From: Vallicoccus soli
GTDB lineage: Bacteria > Actinomycetota > Actinomycetes > Motilibacterales > Motilibacteraceae
Assembly: GCF_003594885.1 (NCBI RefSeq)
Contig: NZ_QZEZ01000006.1
Coordinates: forward strand, 1-64,000
Length of the DNA stretch: 64,000 bases
Direction: 5' to 3'
Part shown: one piece after another, positions 6,708 through 31,609 of the stretch
Numbering within the stretch: position 1 is the stretch's first letter
Layout: every line of letters begins with the position of its first letter
Made by a program: the position numbers and the translations under genes
The notes under the pieces: generated by a model
Seen by the model: only the letters and a program-made list of their open reading frames with translations
Told to the model about the DNA's origin: nothing
The model's database searches: none

Positions 6708-8336
6708 ATGGCCGACGAGGGCGCCGTACCCGACCTCGGCGGCATCTGGACCCGCGCCCTCACCGGCGAGGACGACGTCCTCACGACGCAGCAGCGCGCC
6801 TTCCTGCGGCTGACCCGCCCGCTGGGCCTCATCGACGACACCGCCCTGGTGGCCGCGCCCAACGACTTCGTCAAGAACAAGCTCGAGCAGGACCTGCGCC
6901 CCGTCGTCACCGACTGGCTGAGCCGCGAGATCGGCCGTGAGCTGCGCCTGGCCGTCACGGTGGACAGCTCGCTCGACCTCGACGCGGCCCCGCGCCCCGA
7001 GCAGCCGGCGGACGGGCGCGCGGAGACCGCGCCCCCGGCGCCCCCGGTGCCCCCGGTGCCCCAGACCCCCGCGCCGCCGGAGCCCCGGACCGCCGCGCCG
7101 GCCCCCGCGGAGCCGGGCCCGTCCCCCGCGACGGCGTCCCACGACCTCGACGGGCCGGGTGCCGGGCCGGCGCCCCGGCACGCGGTAGCGGCGCCGTACG
7201 GGGGTGGCACCCCGGTCGCGGCGCCGGTCGCCGAGGCCTGGGACCCGCGGCCCCTGCGCCCGGGCACCGGACGCGAGCCGGGACGCACCGACGGCGAGCC
7301 GACCCGCCTCAACCCGAAGTACCTCTTCGAGACCTTCGTCATCGGCGCGAGCAACCGCTTCGCCCACGCCGCGGCGGTGGCGGTGGCCGAGGCGCCGGCG
7401 AAGGCGTACAACCCGCTGTTCATCTACGGCGGCTCGGGCCTGGGCAAGACGCACCTGCTGCACGCCATCGGGCACTACGCCCAGAACCTCTTCGGCGCGG
7501 TCAAGGTGCGCTACGTGAGCTCGGAGGAGTTCACGAACGACTTCATCAACTCCATCCGCGACGGCAAGGCGGAGTACTTCCGCCGGCGCTACCGCGACGT
7601 CGACATCCTCCTCGTGGACGACATCCAGTTCCTCGAGAACAAGGAGCAGACGCAGGAGGAGTTCTTCCACACCTTCAACACGCTCCACAACGCCAACAAG
7701 CAGATCGTCATCTCCAGCGACCGGCCGCCGCAGCAGCTCGTCACGCTGGAGGACCGGCTGCGCAACCGGTTCCAGTGGGGCCTGACGACCGACGTCCAGC
7801 CCCCGGAGCTCGAGACGCGGATCGCGATCCTGCGCAAGAAGGCCGCCCAGGACGGGCTCGACGCCCCTCCCGAGGTGCTGGAGTTCATCGCGAGCAAGAT
7901 CGCGACGAACATCCGCGAGCTCGAGGGCGCGCTCATCCGGGTCACGGCGTTCGCGAGCCTCAACCGGCAGAGCGTGGACCTGGCCCTGGCCGAGATCGTC
8001 CTCAAGGACCTCATCCCGGACGACTCGGGCCCGGAGATCACCGCGGCCACGATCATGGCGCAGACGGCGGCGTACTTCAGCCTGTCCATGGAGGACCTCT
8101 GCGGGTCCTCCCGCTCCCGGCAGCTGGTGCAGGCCCGGCAGATCGCCATGTACCTCTGCCGCGAGCTGACGTCGCTGTCGCTGCCGAAGATCGGCCAGCA
8201 GTTCGGCGGGCGCGACCACACGACCGTCATGCACGCGGACAAGAAGATCCGCCAGCAGCTCGGCGAGAAGCGCTCGACGTACAACCAGGTCACCGAGCTG
8301 ACCAACCGGATCAAGTCGCAGGCCCGGCAGTCGTGA
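6708..8336 (+). CDS. dnaA: Chromosomal replication initiator protein DnaA
   Basis: AAA+ initiator that binds DnaA boxes, melts oriC and loads DnaB. Domain I is residues 1-85. Domain II (about 90-190) is a long Pro/Ala-rich linker, as in other high-GC actinobacteria. Domain III has the Walker A motif GGSGLGKT (about 241-248), Walker [10 protein letters not shown] and sensor ISSDRPP. Domain IV ends with the DNA-binding signature [15 protein letters not shown]. Total 542 residues, within the actinobacterial range. ATG start; transcription diverges from rpmH. Confidence 0.98.
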
Positions 8337-24120: not shown

Positions 24121-24882
24121 GTGGGACGCGCCGCGCGCCGGGCCGGCTGGCGCCTGCTGGTCCCCGTGGCCCTCGTCGTGGCCGGGCTGCTCTTCGCCAC
24201 CAGCGCGGGCACCGCGCGCGGCACCGACCTGCGCGCGGAGGAGACCGCGGACCTGGCCTCGGTGCTGCGCGACGAGCAGCGCCGGGTCGAGGAGCAGGGC
24301 CTGCGGGTGCAGGCGCTGCGCGAGGAGGTCGAGCGCCTGTCCGCCGCCGCGGCGCGCTCGGACTCCGGTGCCGCGGCCGCCCGCGAGCGCGCCGAGCGGG
24401 TCGCCGAGCGCGCCGCCCTGACCCCGGTGACCGGCGAGGCGCTGACCGTGGTCCTCGACGACGCGCCGTACGACGACCCGGAGCAGGTGCCCGAGGGCGT
24501 CGTCCCGGACGACCTCGTGGTGCACCAGCAGGACCTGCAGGGCGTGGTGAACGCGCTGTGGGCGGGCGGGGCCGAGGCCATGCGCCTCATGGACCAGCGG
24601 GTGGTGTCCACCAGCGCGGTCCGCTGCGTCGGCAACGTCCTCATCCTCCAGGGCCGCACCTACTCGCCGCCGTACCGCGTGACGGCGGTCGGCGACGTGG
24701 CGGGGATGCGCGCCGCGCTCGAGGCGGCGCCGAGCGTGCAGGCGTACCGGTACTGGGCCGAGCGGGTCGGCCTGGGCTACGAGGTGGCGGCCGAGGGGAC
24801 GACCACCCTCGCCGGGTACGAGGGCTCGCTCGACCTGCAGCACGCCCGGGTGCCCGAGGACGCGGCGGTGCTCGGCGACTGA
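24121..24882 (+). CDS. DUF881 membrane-anchored protein
   Basis: 253 residues. A single N-terminal membrane helix (LLVPVALVVAGLLFATSAGTARG) is followed by a coiled coil (about 35-95: RDEQRRVEEQGLRVQALREEVERL) and the DUF881 domain, with VVLDDAP, LVVHQQDLQGVVNALWAGGAEAMRLMDQRV and CVGNVLILQGRTYSPPYRVTAVGD. In Gram-positives such proteins are near cell-division genes, consistent with crgA next door; function unproven. GTG start with GGAGG. Confidence 0.92.
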   Translation: MGRAARRAGWRLLVPVALVVAGLLFATSAGTARGTDLRAEETADLASVLRDEQRRVEEQGLRVQALREEVERLSAAAARSDSGAAAARERAERVAERAALTPVTGEALTVVLDDAPYDDPEQVPEGVVPDDLVVHQQDLQGVVNALWAGGAEAMRLMDQRVVSTSAVRCVGNVLILQGRTYSPPYRVTAVGDVAGMRAALEAAPSVQAYRYWAERVGLGYEVAAEGTTTLAGYEGSLDLQHARVPEDAAVLGD

Positions 24883-24931
24883 CGGCCGCGGGGCCCGAGG
24901 GCCGGGGCCGCGTCGTACCCTGGGGCGCACC

Positions 24932-25555
24932 ATGGGCGCCCGCATCCTCGTCGTCGACAACTACGACAGCTTCGTCTTCAACCTCGTGCAGTACCTCGGC
25001 CAGCTCGACGCCGAGTGCACCGTCGTGCGCAACGACGCCGTGGGCGTCGAGGACGCCGAGGGCTACGACGGCGTGCTGCTGTCCCCGGGCCCGGGCACGC
25101 CGGAGGAGGCGGGCGTCTGCGTCGACATGGTGCGCCACTGCGCCGGGCGCGTCCCGCTGCTGGGGGTGTGCCTGGGGCACCAGGCGATCGGGGTGGCGTA
25201 CGGCGCCACGGTCGCCCGCGCGCCCGAGCTGCTCCACGGCAAGACGAGCCGGGTCGAGCACGAGGGCGGAGGGGTGCTCGCGGGGCTGCCCTCGCCGTTC
25301 ACCGCCACCCGCTACCACTCGCTGGCGGTGGAGCCGGCGACCGTGCCCGACGAGCTGGAGGTCACCGGCCGGGCCGGTCGGGTGGTCATGGCGATGCGCC
25401 ACCGCGAGCACGCGGTCGAGGGCGTGCAGTTCCACCCCGAGTCCGTCCTCACCGAGGGCGGGCACCGGATGCTGGCCAACTGGTTGGTCACGTGCGGTGA
25501 CACCGGGGCGACCGCGCGGGCGGAGGGACTCGCTCCTGTGGTGGCGCACGACTGA
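24932..25555 (+). CDS. pabA: Glutamine amidotransferase of aminodeoxychorismate/anthranilate synthase
   Basis: Class-I glutamine amidotransferase, 207 residues. It supplies ammonia to chorismate-using synthases for folate or tryptophan synthesis. Visible motifs: VDNYDSFVFNLVQYL at the start, SPGPGTPEEAG, the nucleophilic Cys in GVCLGHQAIG, and the His/Glu pair in GVQFHPESVLT. No synthase component I is adjacent, so trpG versus pabA is undecided; the crgA-DUF881-pknB context matches the gene usually named pabA or trpG. TACCCT at 24916-24921 lies 10 nt before the ATG and no ribosome-binding site is seen, suggesting a nearly leaderless mRNA. Confidence 0.93.
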   Translation: MGARILVVDNYDSFVFNLVQYLGQLDAECTVVRNDAVGVEDAEGYDGVLLSPGPGTPEEAGVCVDMVRHCAGRVPLLGVCLGHQAIGVAYGATVARAPELLHGKTSRVEHEGGGVLAGLPSPFTATRYHSLAVEPATVPDELEVTGRAGRVVMAMRHREHAVEGVQFHPESVLTEGGHRMLANWLVTCGDTGATARAEGLAPVVAHD

Positions 25556-25576
25556 TCCGCCGCTAGGCTCGTGCAG

Positions 25577-28195
25577 GTGAGCCAGCACGCGACGCGCGAC
25601 ACGCGCGCCCGCGAGCAGGTGCGGCGCGTCCAGCGCGGCGAGGAGGGACCCCTTGCGGGGTCGCTGCGCGACGTGCCCGCGGCCGTGCTGCTCGTGGACC
25701 TGACCGACCGCCGGGTGATCTACACGAACCCGGTGGCCCGCGCCATGGTCCCCGAGGACTTCGAGCTGCCCGCCTCGGCCGAGGACTGGAGCCGGGCGGC
25801 GGGCCTGCGCCAACCCGACGGCGCCGCGTACGACCCCGCGAAGTCGCCGGTGGTCCGCTCGACCGAGGGCGAGCGCGTGGAGGGCGAGGCGGTGCTCGTC
25901 CCGCCGCGCCGCGAGGCGGAGGCGGTCGAGGGCGTCCCCGACCTCGACAGCGAGGAACGCCGGCACGAGCGGGTGCTGTGGGTGACGTCGTACCCGCTGG
26001 AGGGCGCGACCGGCCTCTCGGACCGCGCGCTCGTCGCGTTCTTCGAGATCGACCCGTACTGGCCCACCGAGCAGCTCGGCGAGGACCTGCACCTGCGCGC
26101 GCTGGGGTCGATCGACATCAGCTTCACCATCGCCGACCCGCACCAGGACGACATGCCGCTGGTGTGGGTGAACCAGGCGTTCACCCGGGTCACGGGGTAC
26201 GGCTTCGACGAGGTCGTCGGGCACAACTGCCGGTTCCTGCAGGGGCCGGACTCCGACCGCGGGGTCGTCGCGCAGCTGCGCGCGGCGCTCGTGGAGCGGC
26301 GCTCGGTCACGGTCACGCTGCTGAACTACCGCAAGAACGGCTCGCCGTTCTGGAACGAGATCAGCATGTCCCCGATCGTCGACGCCGACGGCGAGCTGAC
26401 CCACTTCGTGGGGGTGCAGGCCGACGTCACGGCGCGCATGCACGACGAGGCCGAGCGCCGCCGGCTCCTCGCCGAGGAGCAGGCCGCGCGCGAGGCCGCG
26501 GAGCGGGCCAACCGCGAGGAGCAGGCGGCCCGCGCCGCCGCCGAGGACGCCCAGCGCCGCGTCGGGCTGCTCGCCGAGGCCACGAGCCTGCTCGCCGGCA
26601 CGCTCGACGTGCAGCAGGCGCTCGAGCAGCTCACCCGGCTCGTCGTGCCCACGCTCGCGGACTGGTGCCTGGTCGACCTGCTGGACGGCGACAGGGTCGA
26701 GACGGTCGCCTCCGCGCACGTGGACCCCGACCGCGAGCGCGTCGTGCGCGAGGTGGGCGAGGGCCGCGAGCTGCGCCTCGGCGACGACCACCCCGTCGCG
26801 AGGGTGATGCGCGACGGGGAGCCGCTGCTCGTCGCGGACGTGGACCGGCCGCTCATCGAGCGCACCGTGCGCCCCGACCAGCGCGAGCTCTGGACCAGCC
26901 TGGCCCCCCGCTCGGTCATGTGCGTGCCGCTCAAGGCCCGCCGCGAGGTGCTGGGCACCCTGACGCTCTACACGTCGGCCTCGGGGCGGGTGTACGGCGG
27001 CGAGGACCTCGAGCTGGCCTGCGACCTCGCGCGGCGGGCCGCGCTCAACGTCGACAACGCCCGGCTCTACCAGCGCGAGCACCAGCTCGCGGTGGAGCTG
27101 CAGAAGAGCCTGCTGCCCGACGTCCCCCCGCACGTCGAGGGCCTCGACGTCGACAAGCGCTACCTGTCCGGCGCCCACGACACGCAGGTCGGCGGCGACT
27201 GGTACGACGTCATCCCCCTCGGCGCCGCCCGCACCGCCCTGGTCATCGGCGACGTCATGGGGCGCGGGGTGCGCGCCGCGGCGGTCATGGGCCAGCTGCG
27301 CGCCGCCGTGCGCGCGCTCGCCCTCGTCGACTTCCCGCCGGCGCAGGTGATGAGCACGCTCGACAAGCTCGTCGCCGACATCGACGAGTCGTCGATCGTC
27401 ACGTGCGTCTACGCGGTCTACGATCCCAGCGACCACTCGCTGACCTACGCGAACGCGGGGCACCTGCCGCCGGTCCTCGTCGCGCCGGGCGCCGCGCCGC
27501 GCGAGCTCGTCGACGTGCCGGGGCCCCCGCTGGGCACCTCCGTCGGCACCTTCGCCTCGGGCCGCACCGACTTCCCGGCGGGCAGCACGCTGGTGCTCTA
27601 CACCGACGGGCTCGTCGAGCGGCGCGGTGAGGACATCGACGAGGGGATCAGCCGCCTGGCGGACTCGGTGACGGACACCGGCGACCTCACGGTCTCCCAG
27701 GTGTGCGACCGCGTCCTGGCGAGCGTGAGCCCGACCGGCGACTACGACGACGACGTCGGCCTGCTCGTCGTGCGGACGCCGGCGGCGGACGACCCGCGCG
27801 ACCGGCACGCCACCGCCGTGCTGTCCCTCACCGGCGACCCGGACGAGGCGCGGGCCACCCGCCGGTGGGCCGAGCCGCTGCTGGAGGACTGGCAGCTGCC
27901 CGCGCCGCGGCGCGAGGAGGCGGTCGTCGTGCTCAACGAGCTCGTGGCCAACGCCCTGGTGCACGGCGCGGCCCCGGTGACCGTGACGCTGCGCCGCTCG
28001 GACCGCCGGCTCGTCGTCGAGGTCGCCGACGCGCGGCCGGTGCCGCCGCGCCGGCTCGTCGCGGACCCCGAGGCCGAGCACGGCCGCGGCATCGCGATGG
28101 TCGACGTCCTGGCGCAGCGCTGGGGCATCCGTCCCACCGACGACGGCAAGGCCGTGTGGGCCGAGCTGGACCTGCGGGAGGCCGCGGCCTCCTGA
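25577..28195 (+). CDS. LOV/PAS-GAF-PP2C(SpoIIE)-HATPase regulatory protein
   Basis: About 872 residues. Order of domains: N-terminal PAS-like segment (30-150); a PAS/LOV domain (about 170-285) with the flavin-adduct motif GHNCRFLQGPDSD (Cys near residue 218), NYRKNG and FVGVQADVTAR; a coiled-coil linker (290-330); a GAF domain (about 335-495); an SpoIIE/PP2C phosphatase (505-720) with GGDWYDVIPLG and GDVMGRGVRAAAVM; and a HATPase_c anti-sigma-kinase-like domain (745-870) with VLNELVANALVHG and GRGIAMVD. Such proteins act on anti-sigma/anti-anti-sigma partners; the LOV cysteine implies blue-light control. A -10-like TAGGCT (25564-25569) ends 7 nt before the GTG at 25577, so the mRNA may be leaderless. 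Confidence 0.9.
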   Translation: MSQHATRDTRAREQVRRVQRGEEGPLAGSLRDVPAAVLLVDLTDRRVIYTNPVARAMVPEDFELPASAEDWSRAAGLRQPDGAAYDPAKSPVVRSTEGERVEGEAVLVPPRREAEAVEGVPDLDSEERRHERVLWVTSYPLEGATGLSDRALVAFFEIDPYWPTEQLGEDLHLRALGSIDISFTIADPHQDDMPLVWVNQAFTRVTGYGFDEVVGHNCRFLQGPDSDRGVVAQLRAALVERRSVTVTLLNYRKNGSPFWNEISMSPIVDADGELTHFVGVQADVTARMHDEAERRRLLAEEQAAREAAERANREEQAARAAAEDAQRRVGLLAEATSLLAGTLDVQQALEQLTRLVVPTLADWCLVDLLDGDRVETVASAHVDPDRERVVREVGEGRELRLGDDHPVARVMRDGEPLLVADVDRPLIERTVRPDQRELWTSLAPRSVMCVPLKARREVLGTLTLYTSASGRVYGGEDLELACDLARRAALNVDNARLYQREHQLAVELQKSLLPDVPPHVEGLDVDKRYLSGAHDTQVGGDWYDVIPLGAARTALVIGDVMGRGVRAAAVMGQLRAAVRALALVDFPPAQVMSTLDKLVADIDESSIVTCVYAVYDPSDHSLTYANAGHLPPVLVAPGAAPRELVDVPGPPLGTSVGTFASGRTDFPAGSTLVLYTDGLVERRGEDIDEGISRLADSVTDTGDLTVSQVCDRVLASVSPTGDYDDDVGLLVVRTPAADDPRDRHATAVLSLTGDPDEARATRRWAEPLLEDWQLPAPRREEAVVVLNELVANALVHGAAPVTVTLRRSDRRLVVEVADARPVPPRRLVADPEAEHGRGIAMVDVLAQRWGIRPTDDGKAVWAELDLREAAAS

Positions 28196-28261: not shown

Positions 28262-30046
<1,785 letters not shown>

Positions 30047-30139
30047 CGCGCTCCCTCCCGCCGGCCCCGCCGGGCTCCCCTGACGTCCTCGTCGCGCGCG
30101 TCCGCCCCCCGAGCGGCACCCACCGTACTCATCGGCAGC

Positions 30140-31609
30140 TCACCCGCCGTCCCCCAGCACCGCCGCCATGACGTCCTGGGCGATGGGCGCAGCGAGCCGG
30201 TTGCCGCTGATCTCGGCCTCGCCGCCGCCGTCCTCGATGACCACGGCGACCGCGACGCGGGCGGTCTCGCCGGGCCCCGCGGGGGCGAACGAGGTGAACC
30301 AGGCGTGCGGCGGCTCGCCCTCGCCCTGCTGCGCGGTGCCGGTCTTGCCGGCGACGGTGACGCCGTCGAGCTGGCCGTTGGTGCCGGTGCCCTCCTCGAC
30401 GACCTCGACCATCATGGCCCGCAGCTCCGCGGCGACCTCGGGGCTGACGGCGGCGGACAGCTCCTCCGGCTCCGTGCGGTCGAGCACCGACAGGTCGGGG
30501 GCCTGCACCTGGTCGACGAGGTACGGCTCCATGACGACCCCGTTGTTCGCGATGCCGGCGGCGACCATCGCGACCTGCAGCGGCGTGGCGCGCACGTCGA
30601 ACTGGCCGATGGCCGACTGCGCGGTCTGCGGCGCGTCGGGGTCCTCGGGGAACGCGCTCGTCGCGGTGGTGAGGGGCACCGTGCGGTCCTCCTGGCCGAA
30701 GCCGAAGGCCTGCGCCTGCTCGCGCAGCGCGTCCGCGCCGAGGTCCAGCCCGACCGCGCCGAAGCTGGAGTTGCAGGAGCGCCGCAGCGCGTTCGTCAGC
30801 GTGGTGGTGTCGCTGCCGGGGGTGCACTGGGCGCGGTCGCTGTTGGGCAGCCCGACGTCGGTGAGCGGCAGGTCGAGCTCGGCGGGCCCGGGCACCTCGG
30901 AGTCCGGGTCGTAGCGCCCGCTCTCGAGCGCCGCGGCCGCCGTCACGAGCTTGAAGGTGGAGCCGGGCGGATAGGTCTCGCGCAGCGCCCGGTCGAGCAG
31001 CGGCTGGTCCTCGTCGGCCGTGAGCTGCTCGTACGCCCCGCGGATCGCCCCGCCGTCGTGGCTGGACAGCGCGTTGGGGTCGTACGTCGGGCTGGAGACG
31101 AGGGCGAGGATCGCGCCGGTCGTGGGGTCGAGGGCGACGACGGCGCCCTTGCGCCCGTCGAGGCCCTCCGCGGCGGCCTGCTGCGCGGCCGGGTCGAGGG
31201 TGAGGGAGACGGCGCCGCCCTGCACCTCCTCGCCGGTGATGAGGTTGCCGAGCCGGCGCACGAAGAGCCGGTCGTCGTTGCCGGCGAGGACGTCGTTCTC
31301 GGCCCGCTCGACCCCGGCGGCGCCGTAGACGTAGGAGTAGTAGCCGGTGGCGTGGGCGAAGAGCGGGCCCGAGGGGTAGCGCCGCAGGTAGCGCAGCTGG
31401 TCGTCGGTGGCGACCGAGTCGGCCACGGCGCGCCCGTCGACGAGGATCGGGCCGCGCTCGCGGTCGTACTCCTCGAGGATCGTGCGCGAGTTGCCGGGGC
31501 GGTTGCGCAGGTCGTCGGCCCGGAACGCCTGCAGGTAGTTGACGTTCACCAGCAGCACGGCGAAGAGCAGCATGACGACGGCGCCCATGCGCCGCAGCGG
31601 CCGGTTCAC
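30140..31609 (-). CDS. pbpA: Penicillin-binding protein 2 (PbpA-type transpeptidase)
   Basis: Class B PBP, 489 residues. N-terminal membrane anchor (MGAVVMLLFAVLLVNVNYLQAF), a dimerisation domain with TILEEYDRERGPIL, then the transpeptidase domain. Active-site motifs: Ser in YPPGSTFKLV (SxxK), SCN in RRSCNSSFGAVG (SxN) and KTGTAQ (KTG). Works with the adjacent SEDS glycosyltransferase in peptidoglycan synthesis. The GTG start (31607-31609) overlaps the rodA stop by 4 nt. The upstream part of the frame lies over rodA and is not coding. Confidence 0.96.
   Translation of the reverse strand: MNRPLRRMGAVVMLLFAVLLVNVNYLQAFRADDLRNRPGNSRTILEEYDRERGPILVDGRAVADSVATDDQLRYLRRYPSGPLFAHATGYYSYVYGAAGVERAENDVLAGNDDRLFVRRLGNLITGEEVQGGAVSLTLDPAAQQAAAEGLDGRKGAVVALDPTTGAILALVSSPTYDPNALSSHDGGAIRGAYEQLTADEDQPLLDRALRETYPPGSTFKLVTAAAALESGRYDPDSEVPGPAELDLPLTDVGLPNSDRAQCTPGSDTTTLTNALRRSCNSSFGAVGLDLGADALREQAQAFGFGQEDRTVPLTTATSAFPEDPDAPQTAQSAIGQFDVRATPLQVAMVAAGIANNGVVMEPYLVDQVQAPDLSVLDRTEPEELSAAVSPEVAAELRAMMVEVVEEGTGTNGQLDGVTVAGKTGTAQQGEGEPPHAWFTSFAPAGPGETARVAVAVVIEDGGGEAEISGNRLAAPIAQDVMAAVLGDGG

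Follow-up and report, generated by a model that had tools for sequence, protein, structure and literature searches.

In Vallicoccus soli, a 64,000-nucleotide stretch (contig NZ_QZEZ01000006.1, positions 1 to 64,000; hereafter the window) contains a LOV-GAF-SpoIIE-HATPase gene whose 872-residue product, as judged from its sequence and predicted structure, is probably a blue-light receptor that acts by partner switching and is contained in one chain. The gene is a single uninterrupted frame on the + strand (start 25571 or 25577, stop 28195), and its product comprises, in order, an N-terminal PAS-like domain, a LOV domain, a helical linker, a GAF domain, a SpoIIE/PPM phosphatase and a HATPase_c_2 domain. 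Pfam matches, every one above its curated cut-off, were obtained for PAS_9 (residues 191-286, E 5e-22), GAF (344-490), SpoIIE (551-734, E 1e-50) and HATPase_c_2 (753-862, E 9e-13), which bears out the proposal of an earlier note on this DNA that LOV, GAF, PP2C and HATPase domains are fused in one chain. The N-terminal domain, overlooked in that note, was recognized by the PAS-like strand and helix order of residues ~30-165 in an AlphaFold2 model; it is kept in most LOV relatives, and its blocks reached predicted local distance difference test (pLDDT) values of 84-96, except for 53-58 at residues 111-130. Over the whole chain (27-row alignment), a mean pLDDT of 86 set against a predicted template-modelling score of 0.59 indicates that the single domains are confident and their arrangement is unsure; helices 285-340 and 475-512 were unbroken. 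In the Foldseek ranking, the Rv1364c RsbU-RsbW structure (3ke6) came top, followed by LOV-PAS kinase constructs and the RssB phosphatase.

The LOV sensor and the output domains

The PAS domain carrying GHNCRFLQG (residues 215-223, nucleotides 26219-26245, with the adduct Cys218 at 26228-26230) is a LOV domain and a predicted photoreceptor. All eight LOV signature residues are present (N217, C218, R219, L221, Q222, N250, N260 and Q281), among which we take N250, N260, Q281, R219 and Q222 to be flavin contacts. The signature was identical in 20 of 20 LOV rows, bar one FWN Asn (19/20), and the adduct Cys in GxNCRFLQ was kept in all 20 rows compared, a set in which Cys-less rows are under-sampled because it was collected with a LOV query. 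The top PDB sequence matches to the LOV stretch were phototropin and bacterial LOV domains (E 2e-32), and models of LOV kinases and YtvA also matched it (E 7e-46 to 2e-41), although the scores did not reach the cut-offs set for full-length proteins (142 bits for the YtvA family NF052652, short of its full-length equivalog score of 250). The modelled domain superposed on 3t50 at 0.6 Å over 105-108 columns, on 3t50, 9vf8 and 1n9l at 0.6-0.8 Å, and on isolated LOV domains overall at 0.6-0.9 Å. The motif, which the earlier note had read as a flavin-adduct site, is therefore no chance match: the signature is complete, the PDB neighbours are LOV domains, and the surrounding LOV residues are present in a model that fits solved structures.

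The PPM residues Asp541, 559, 677, 725 and 726 were invariant in 27 of 27 aligned rows, PF07228 was matched, and the phosphatase site, judged by these residues, is intact. Glu788, Asn792, Asp818 and Gly836/838 of the GRG motif in the HATPase domain were kept in all 10 domain-bearing rows among the 27. A HATPase tail occurs in 3 of 22 LOV rows with SpoIIE, the other 19 ending without one, and a Pfam scan of the window protein found no fused STAS domain.

Phase of the linker between LOV and GAF

Linker length was counted as the residues from the LOV end (GVQxDVT) to the GAF start (LLAEAT). In the first set, linkers measured 17, 24, 31, 38, 45 (window protein) or 59 residues in 20 of 20 rows, all 3 mod 7. 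A score-based anchor, which took the place of regular expressions that missed many rows, made 37 of 46 LOV rows measurable, and 35 of these 37 were again 3 mod 7. Nine rows (score <35) were set aside: eight in which, by eye, LOV is followed by a different domain, and L195, which has no GAF. The pattern was first noticed in set 1, and set 2 was read by eye before scoring. The two rows that break the rule are L239 (32) and L222 (34), of which L239 reads 32 because a residue is inserted within the anchor, giving 31 if counted from the anchor's first letters. Since most rows share 31, the information sits in the lineages that changed length: pooled by hand, 8 of 10 such lineages differ by a multiple of seven (binomial p 6e-6), and 5 of 7 distinct lengths obey the seven-step rule (p 0.001). 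Only three rows of the second set differ from 31, one of which obeys. As a control, the distance that separates the LOV Cys from the N-terminal PAS motif, measurable in 11 of 20 rows, had no single phase (6, 4, 1, 2, 3 and 0 mod 7; the value 6 occurred in four rows and 4 in three, and some of these rows are related). Steps of seven are what signal transmission through a coiled coil would predict, and the linker phase supports, without proving, LOV control of the downstream domains.

Comparable behavior has been described elsewhere. YF1 is known to respond to LOV-linker length in heptads, and several families of LOV and phytochrome receptors show heptad periodicity (PMC6798134, PMC9587094), including a heptad-type pattern in LOV kinases (PMC6798134) and phytochrome cyclases, 54% of which differ by multiples of seven (PMC9587094); LOV cyclases depend on coiled-coil register (PMC12805367). 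Among PPM phosphatases, control by a coiled-coil linker has been demonstrated in RsbU and put forward for others with PAS or GAF sensors, RsbP, OsaC and Rv1364c being named (PMC12143880). We predict that changing the linker by plus or minus seven residues would keep light control and that other numbers would alter it, an experiment that would test the coiled-coil model of PPM phosphatases for light. In one LOV phosphatase without GAF (L195, genome G241; 444-residue frame), the LOV helix runs into the phosphatase helix.

Proposed mechanism, partners and known systems

In the mechanism that we propose, blue light would cause the LOV-bound flavin to form an adduct with Cys218, and the resulting change would pass through helix 285-340, the GAF domain and helix 475-512 to re-set the phosphatase-domain dimer, altering the rate at which a STAS anti-anti-sigma protein loses its phosphate. 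Putting the phosphate back, holding a SigF-family sigma factor, or both would fall to the C-terminal RsbW-like domain; with this domain opposing the phosphatase, the balance between the two activities would change with light. If so, a single natural gene would let blue light switch a sigma-factor pathway in Actinomycetota, the phosphatase and the kinase-like part that opposes it sharing one chain.

Several observations, together with the two linker exceptions and the sparse length changes of the second set, weigh against this reading. Related SpoIIE-HATPase proteins of Oerskovia, Cellulosimicrobium and Actinotalea carry LOV-like domains without the Cys, so the architecture can do without the adduct. 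The existence of such relatives (L069, L074, L076, L080 and L082), along with reports that Cys-less LOV proteins can still signal (PMC4682037, PMC5645311), would suit a LOV domain that binds flavin and acts mainly as a redox or flavin-state sensor, with light incidental and the same partner-switch output; retention of the Cys in the window protein and in 20/20 of the rows gathered with the LOV query makes this clearly unlikely.

A second difficulty concerns the HATPase domain. DxGxG is the G1 ATP-binding box of classical RsbW; it is absent from the window protein, which reads DARPV, and from the other nine HATPase rows compared, and residues 834-844 were modelled with pLDDT <50. The domain is accordingly classed as RsbW-like rather than RsbW, and kinase activity is possible, not certain. 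The missing box, the poorly modelled lid region and the rarity of the tail among LOV rows would all fit a binding platform (a sigma or STAS tether) or an internal phosphatase brake instead of a kinase, an alternative that we regard as somewhat unlikely in view of the Glu788, Asn792, Asp818 and GRG motif kept wherever the domain occurs.

Third, no STAS, anti-sigma or sigma gene lies beside the window gene, none of the six STAS places in the 4.0 Mb genome being adjacent, and with SpoIIE places numbering 21 the wiring cannot be assigned. This genome, which has 30 HATPase_c_2 places, does contain components of a partner-switching network, recognized by their domains: three STAS places bear a DS/DT-x-G site (C1:264959, C4:38587 and C1:294743), one STAS protein (DSTG, at C1:264959) adjoins a HATPase_c_2 gene, and a sigma gene of the SigB/SigF/SigG family adjoins an RsbW-like gene that falls below model cut-offs. 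The link from light to partner switching drawn in the earlier note is reasonable in view of the SpoIIE and RsbW-type domains and of the network parts in the genome, but no partner was identified; the search for STAS partners that it suggested returned six places, none of them adjacent or nameable as a partner. The 21 SpoIIE places, several in frames with HATPase_c_2, make a large complement of partner-switching-type phosphatases for a genome of this size.

Beside LOV phosphatases elsewhere, we observed a separate gene 41% identical to the window RsbW domain (L027:3788-4168), and a short STAS-like gene (by eye) together with a second gene 28% similar to the window protein (L184:9608-11482). Such neighbors were found at 2 of 21 LOV-phosphatase loci, and it is possible that they are cognate partners.

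Two components of the design are known already: LOV-SpoIIE phosphatases, named as a typical bacterial LOV effector class (PMC4844311), and the RsbU-RsbW fusion of Rv1364c. With actinobacterial LOV-GAF-SpoIIE proteins the window protein shares the LOV domain, the heptad-phased linker, the GAF domain and mostly the N-terminal PAS-like domain, whereas most of those proteins lack a HATPase tail and the window SpoIIE groups elsewhere. Rv1364c of Mycobacterium tuberculosis likewise has RsbU and RsbW in one chain, but its sensor is a PAS domain and its chain also includes an anti-anti-sigma domain (PMC12143880), where the window protein has LOV and GAF and no STAS. In YtvA and Lmo0799 (LOV-STAS), LOV feeds sigma-B type control (PMC4844311), an output that would be similar in the window protein; theirs, however, is a LOV domain on a stressosome STAS protein, while that of the window protein is on the phosphatase itself. 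RsbP and RsbU of Bacillus subtilis resemble it in the order of sensor, helical linker and PPM phosphatase and in the model of linker-driven activation (PMC12143880), but have neither a light sensor nor a fused RsbW. In a weak literature search, which did not reach the Glantz 2016 LOV survey (cited in PMC9587094 for conserved linker lengths in LOV effectors), we recognized no description of a LOV-GAF-SpoIIE-HATPase protein and no account of linker phase in LOV phosphatases. Of interest to specialists are the mosaic junction described below, the HATPase tail that relatives probably gained separately, and the linkers phased in heptads.

Apparent mosaic origin and genomic surroundings

Judged by its nearest relatives, the protein looks like a natural mosaic to which two protein families have contributed. 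Residues 1 to ~515 track LOV-GAF-SpoIIE proteins and the SpoIIE domain tracks SpoIIE-HATPase proteins without LOV, with sliding identity over 13 chosen rows switching relatives between residues ~515 and ~525. Relatives came from named genomes (best 80 kept), 393 class genomes, five genomes of the order and 396 phylum genomes (30 loci used, among the matches listed); at least 18 of the 393 class genomes, the own genome included, match residues 24-293 at E<=1e-40, a lower bound with at most 6 candidates scored per genome. In the per-domain comparison, the window LOV and GAF scored highest against LOV-GAF-SpoIIE proteins, the nearest front half being that of a Frankiales metagenome-assembled genome protein, L024 (LOV 58%; GAF 49%, 113 bits), with the caveat that for GAF some LOV-less proteins (up to 87 bits) equal other LOV proteins (36-94 bits). 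The window SpoIIE was closest to the LOV-less L028-L036, L038 and an own paralogue at C1:205136 (50-59%, 206-230 bits; HATPase 38-56%) and more distant from the listed LOV proteins (36-49%, 90-162 bits). Another own paralogue, the GAF-SpoIIE-HATPase protein at C1:694425 (L156), is also near (SpoIIE 53%, 217 bits, a score equal to that of the L028-type group; HATPase 43%), but it has no LOV, its GAF is only 33% identical, and its SpoIIE falls outside the window clade.

When 116 SpoIIE domains were arranged in a tree, that of the window protein belonged to a 12-row clade (99/96) with L028-L036, L038 and the own paralogue L198, apart from the other 21 LOV rows. Approximately unbiased tests rejected both placing the window SpoIIE with those 21 rows (p 5.4e-6) and placing it in the whole 34-row clade that contains them (p 0.0014), a constraint set picked after tree inspection. 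The 21 LOV rows did not form one clade, there being three changes, at least two of them forced by starred branches; L027 fell among LOV-less own paralogues and L191 adjoined the Cys-less group, placements which imply that phosphatase swaps or sensor losses occurred more than once. Alignment A1 excludes the LOV loci L186, L195 and L196. In a quick GAF tree (75 rows with a GAF match >=36 bits), the window GAF fell among the LOV proteins and paired with the L024 domain (92); L028-type proteins are missing from this tree because none gave a GAF match, and the scanned members L198 and L031, differing from the window protein in front, read HisKA-HATPase_c-receiver-SpoIIE-HATPase_c_2 with no LOV. Among the Cys-less rows, L080 retains LNYRKDG and FWN and the remaining four have lost both, a series that looks like stepwise loss of light sensing.

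That the two halves have different nearest relatives could also point to a functionless relic or a misassembled join of two genes. We find this hardly credible, for the frame is unbroken, the catalytic and LOV residues are kept, and the junction retains the DNARLY...LQxSLLP helix with a GAF-to-phosphatase spacing of 15 residues in 13/13 rows (of 27) showing both motifs.

A single old HATPase fusion common to the window protein and to those of G079/G028 was disfavored by a quick HATPase tree, which put the window domain with the L028-type group and the other two elsewhere; before that tree was built, 25 of 83 rows were removed, each of them belonging to the same large clade. Separate HATPase gains are likely, not proven, because tree support is weak (24-88). 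Tentatively, we propose that phosphatase or phosphatase-kinase modules have been swapped behind a fixed LOV-coiled coil-GAF transmitter: the window protein may have been swapped at the phosphatase-core start, gaining its RsbW-like domain, the G079/G028 lineage may have gained a different one separately, Kineococcus L027 would have yet another phosphatase branch, and the coiled-coil register, in steps of seven, would keep the output light-controlled. In such a chain, light would set the ratio of kinase to phosphatase, so that one protein would do the work of the YtvA-RsbU-RsbW pathway, and, were the inferred function true, the natural swap would mark where sensor and phosphatase can be joined. 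One Motilibacter deserti locus of the L028-type group (L032) has 3,001 bases present in G064 at 100%.

The gene lies near the origin, as the earlier note had stated, with dnaA at 6708-8336. Two genomes of the same family, G046 and G028, have pabA directly next to pknB (92 and 13 nucleotides apart); G079 has other genes between the two, and the G064 contig comes to an end. Of 21 other LOV-phosphatase loci inspected, some of them short, not one is placed between pabA and pknB. On these 21 loci and four relatives a conserved location was rejected, and the gene has most likely come to this site as a newcomer. Its position in the pabA-pknB gap, with a PASTA kinase close by as well as genes for a penicillin-binding protein and a PP2C phosphatase, might suggest that the PPM target is something other than a sigma-pathway STAS protein, for example cell-wall or division control by the neighboring PknB; the unconserved placement, and SpoIIE and RsbW domains that together indicate STAS partners, render this very unlikely. 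G046 and G028 have two kinases between pbpA and pabA and the window has one; a sortase gene next to pabA in G046 (Pfam-confirmed) is absent from the window. At 24882-24932 and 30046-30140 we saw no second kinase between pbpA and pknB and no sortase gene.

Table 1. Positions of the features in the window, with residue numbers of the encoded protein.
Feature	Position	Strand	Basis or remark
LOV-GAF-SpoIIE-HATPase gene (P0001)	25577..28195	+	GTG start; 872 aa
N-terminal PAS-like domain, residues 30-165	25664..26071	+	AlphaFold2 secondary structure; no Pfam match
LOV domain, residues 176-286	26102..26434	+	Pfam, PDB sequence search, signature residues, superposition
Helical linker, LOV to GAF, residues 285-340	26429..26596	+	45 residues between anchors = 31 + 2 heptads
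GAF domain, residues 341-490	26597..27046	+	Pfam; best match is the GAF of LOV protein L024
Approximate, apparent mosaic junction, residues ~515-525, phosphatase-core start	27119..27151	+	Sliding identity, 13 rows; trees
SpoIIE/PPM phosphatase, residues 551-734 (Pfam stretch)	27227..27778	+	Asp541 (just N-terminal of stretch), Asp559, Asp677, Asp725/726
HATPase_c_2 (RsbW-type), residues 753-862	27833..28162	+	Glu788, Asn792, Asp818
pabA/trpG-type glutamine amidotransferase, upstream neighbor	24932..25555	+	
PknB-type PASTA kinase, convergent neighbor	28262..30046	-	
TAGGCT, -10-like hexamer, leaderless candidate	25564..25569	+	7 nt before GTG 25577

A leaderless mRNA start is plausible for this gene. 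The position of TAGGCT given in the earlier note is exact, and the leaderless start stays a prediction: no GGAG, GAGG or AGGA was found at -16 to -4 of GTG 25577, and an in-frame GTG at 25571 lies only 1 nucleotide downstream of the hexamer. TANNNT with a spacer of 6-8 preceded 4 of 43 predicted starts, compared with 13 of 2,917 ATG/GTG sites in the window (binomial p 4e-5), and 3 of 42 without the gene itself; starts were crudely predicted, 43 of 49 genes being used and six left out, with that of the LOV gene set to 25577 by hand.

The genome has a second LOV gene (G000:C5:102606; L153:3258-6533), which encodes an EAL-DICT-LOV-GGDEF protein of the cyclic di-GMP type. Eight further LOV genes scanned in four relatives from the order comprised six of EAL-DICT-LOV-GGDEF architecture (L214-L218 and L220), one LOV-GGDEF whose frame is cut by the locus end (L221), and one LOV-GAF-SpoIIE (L222).

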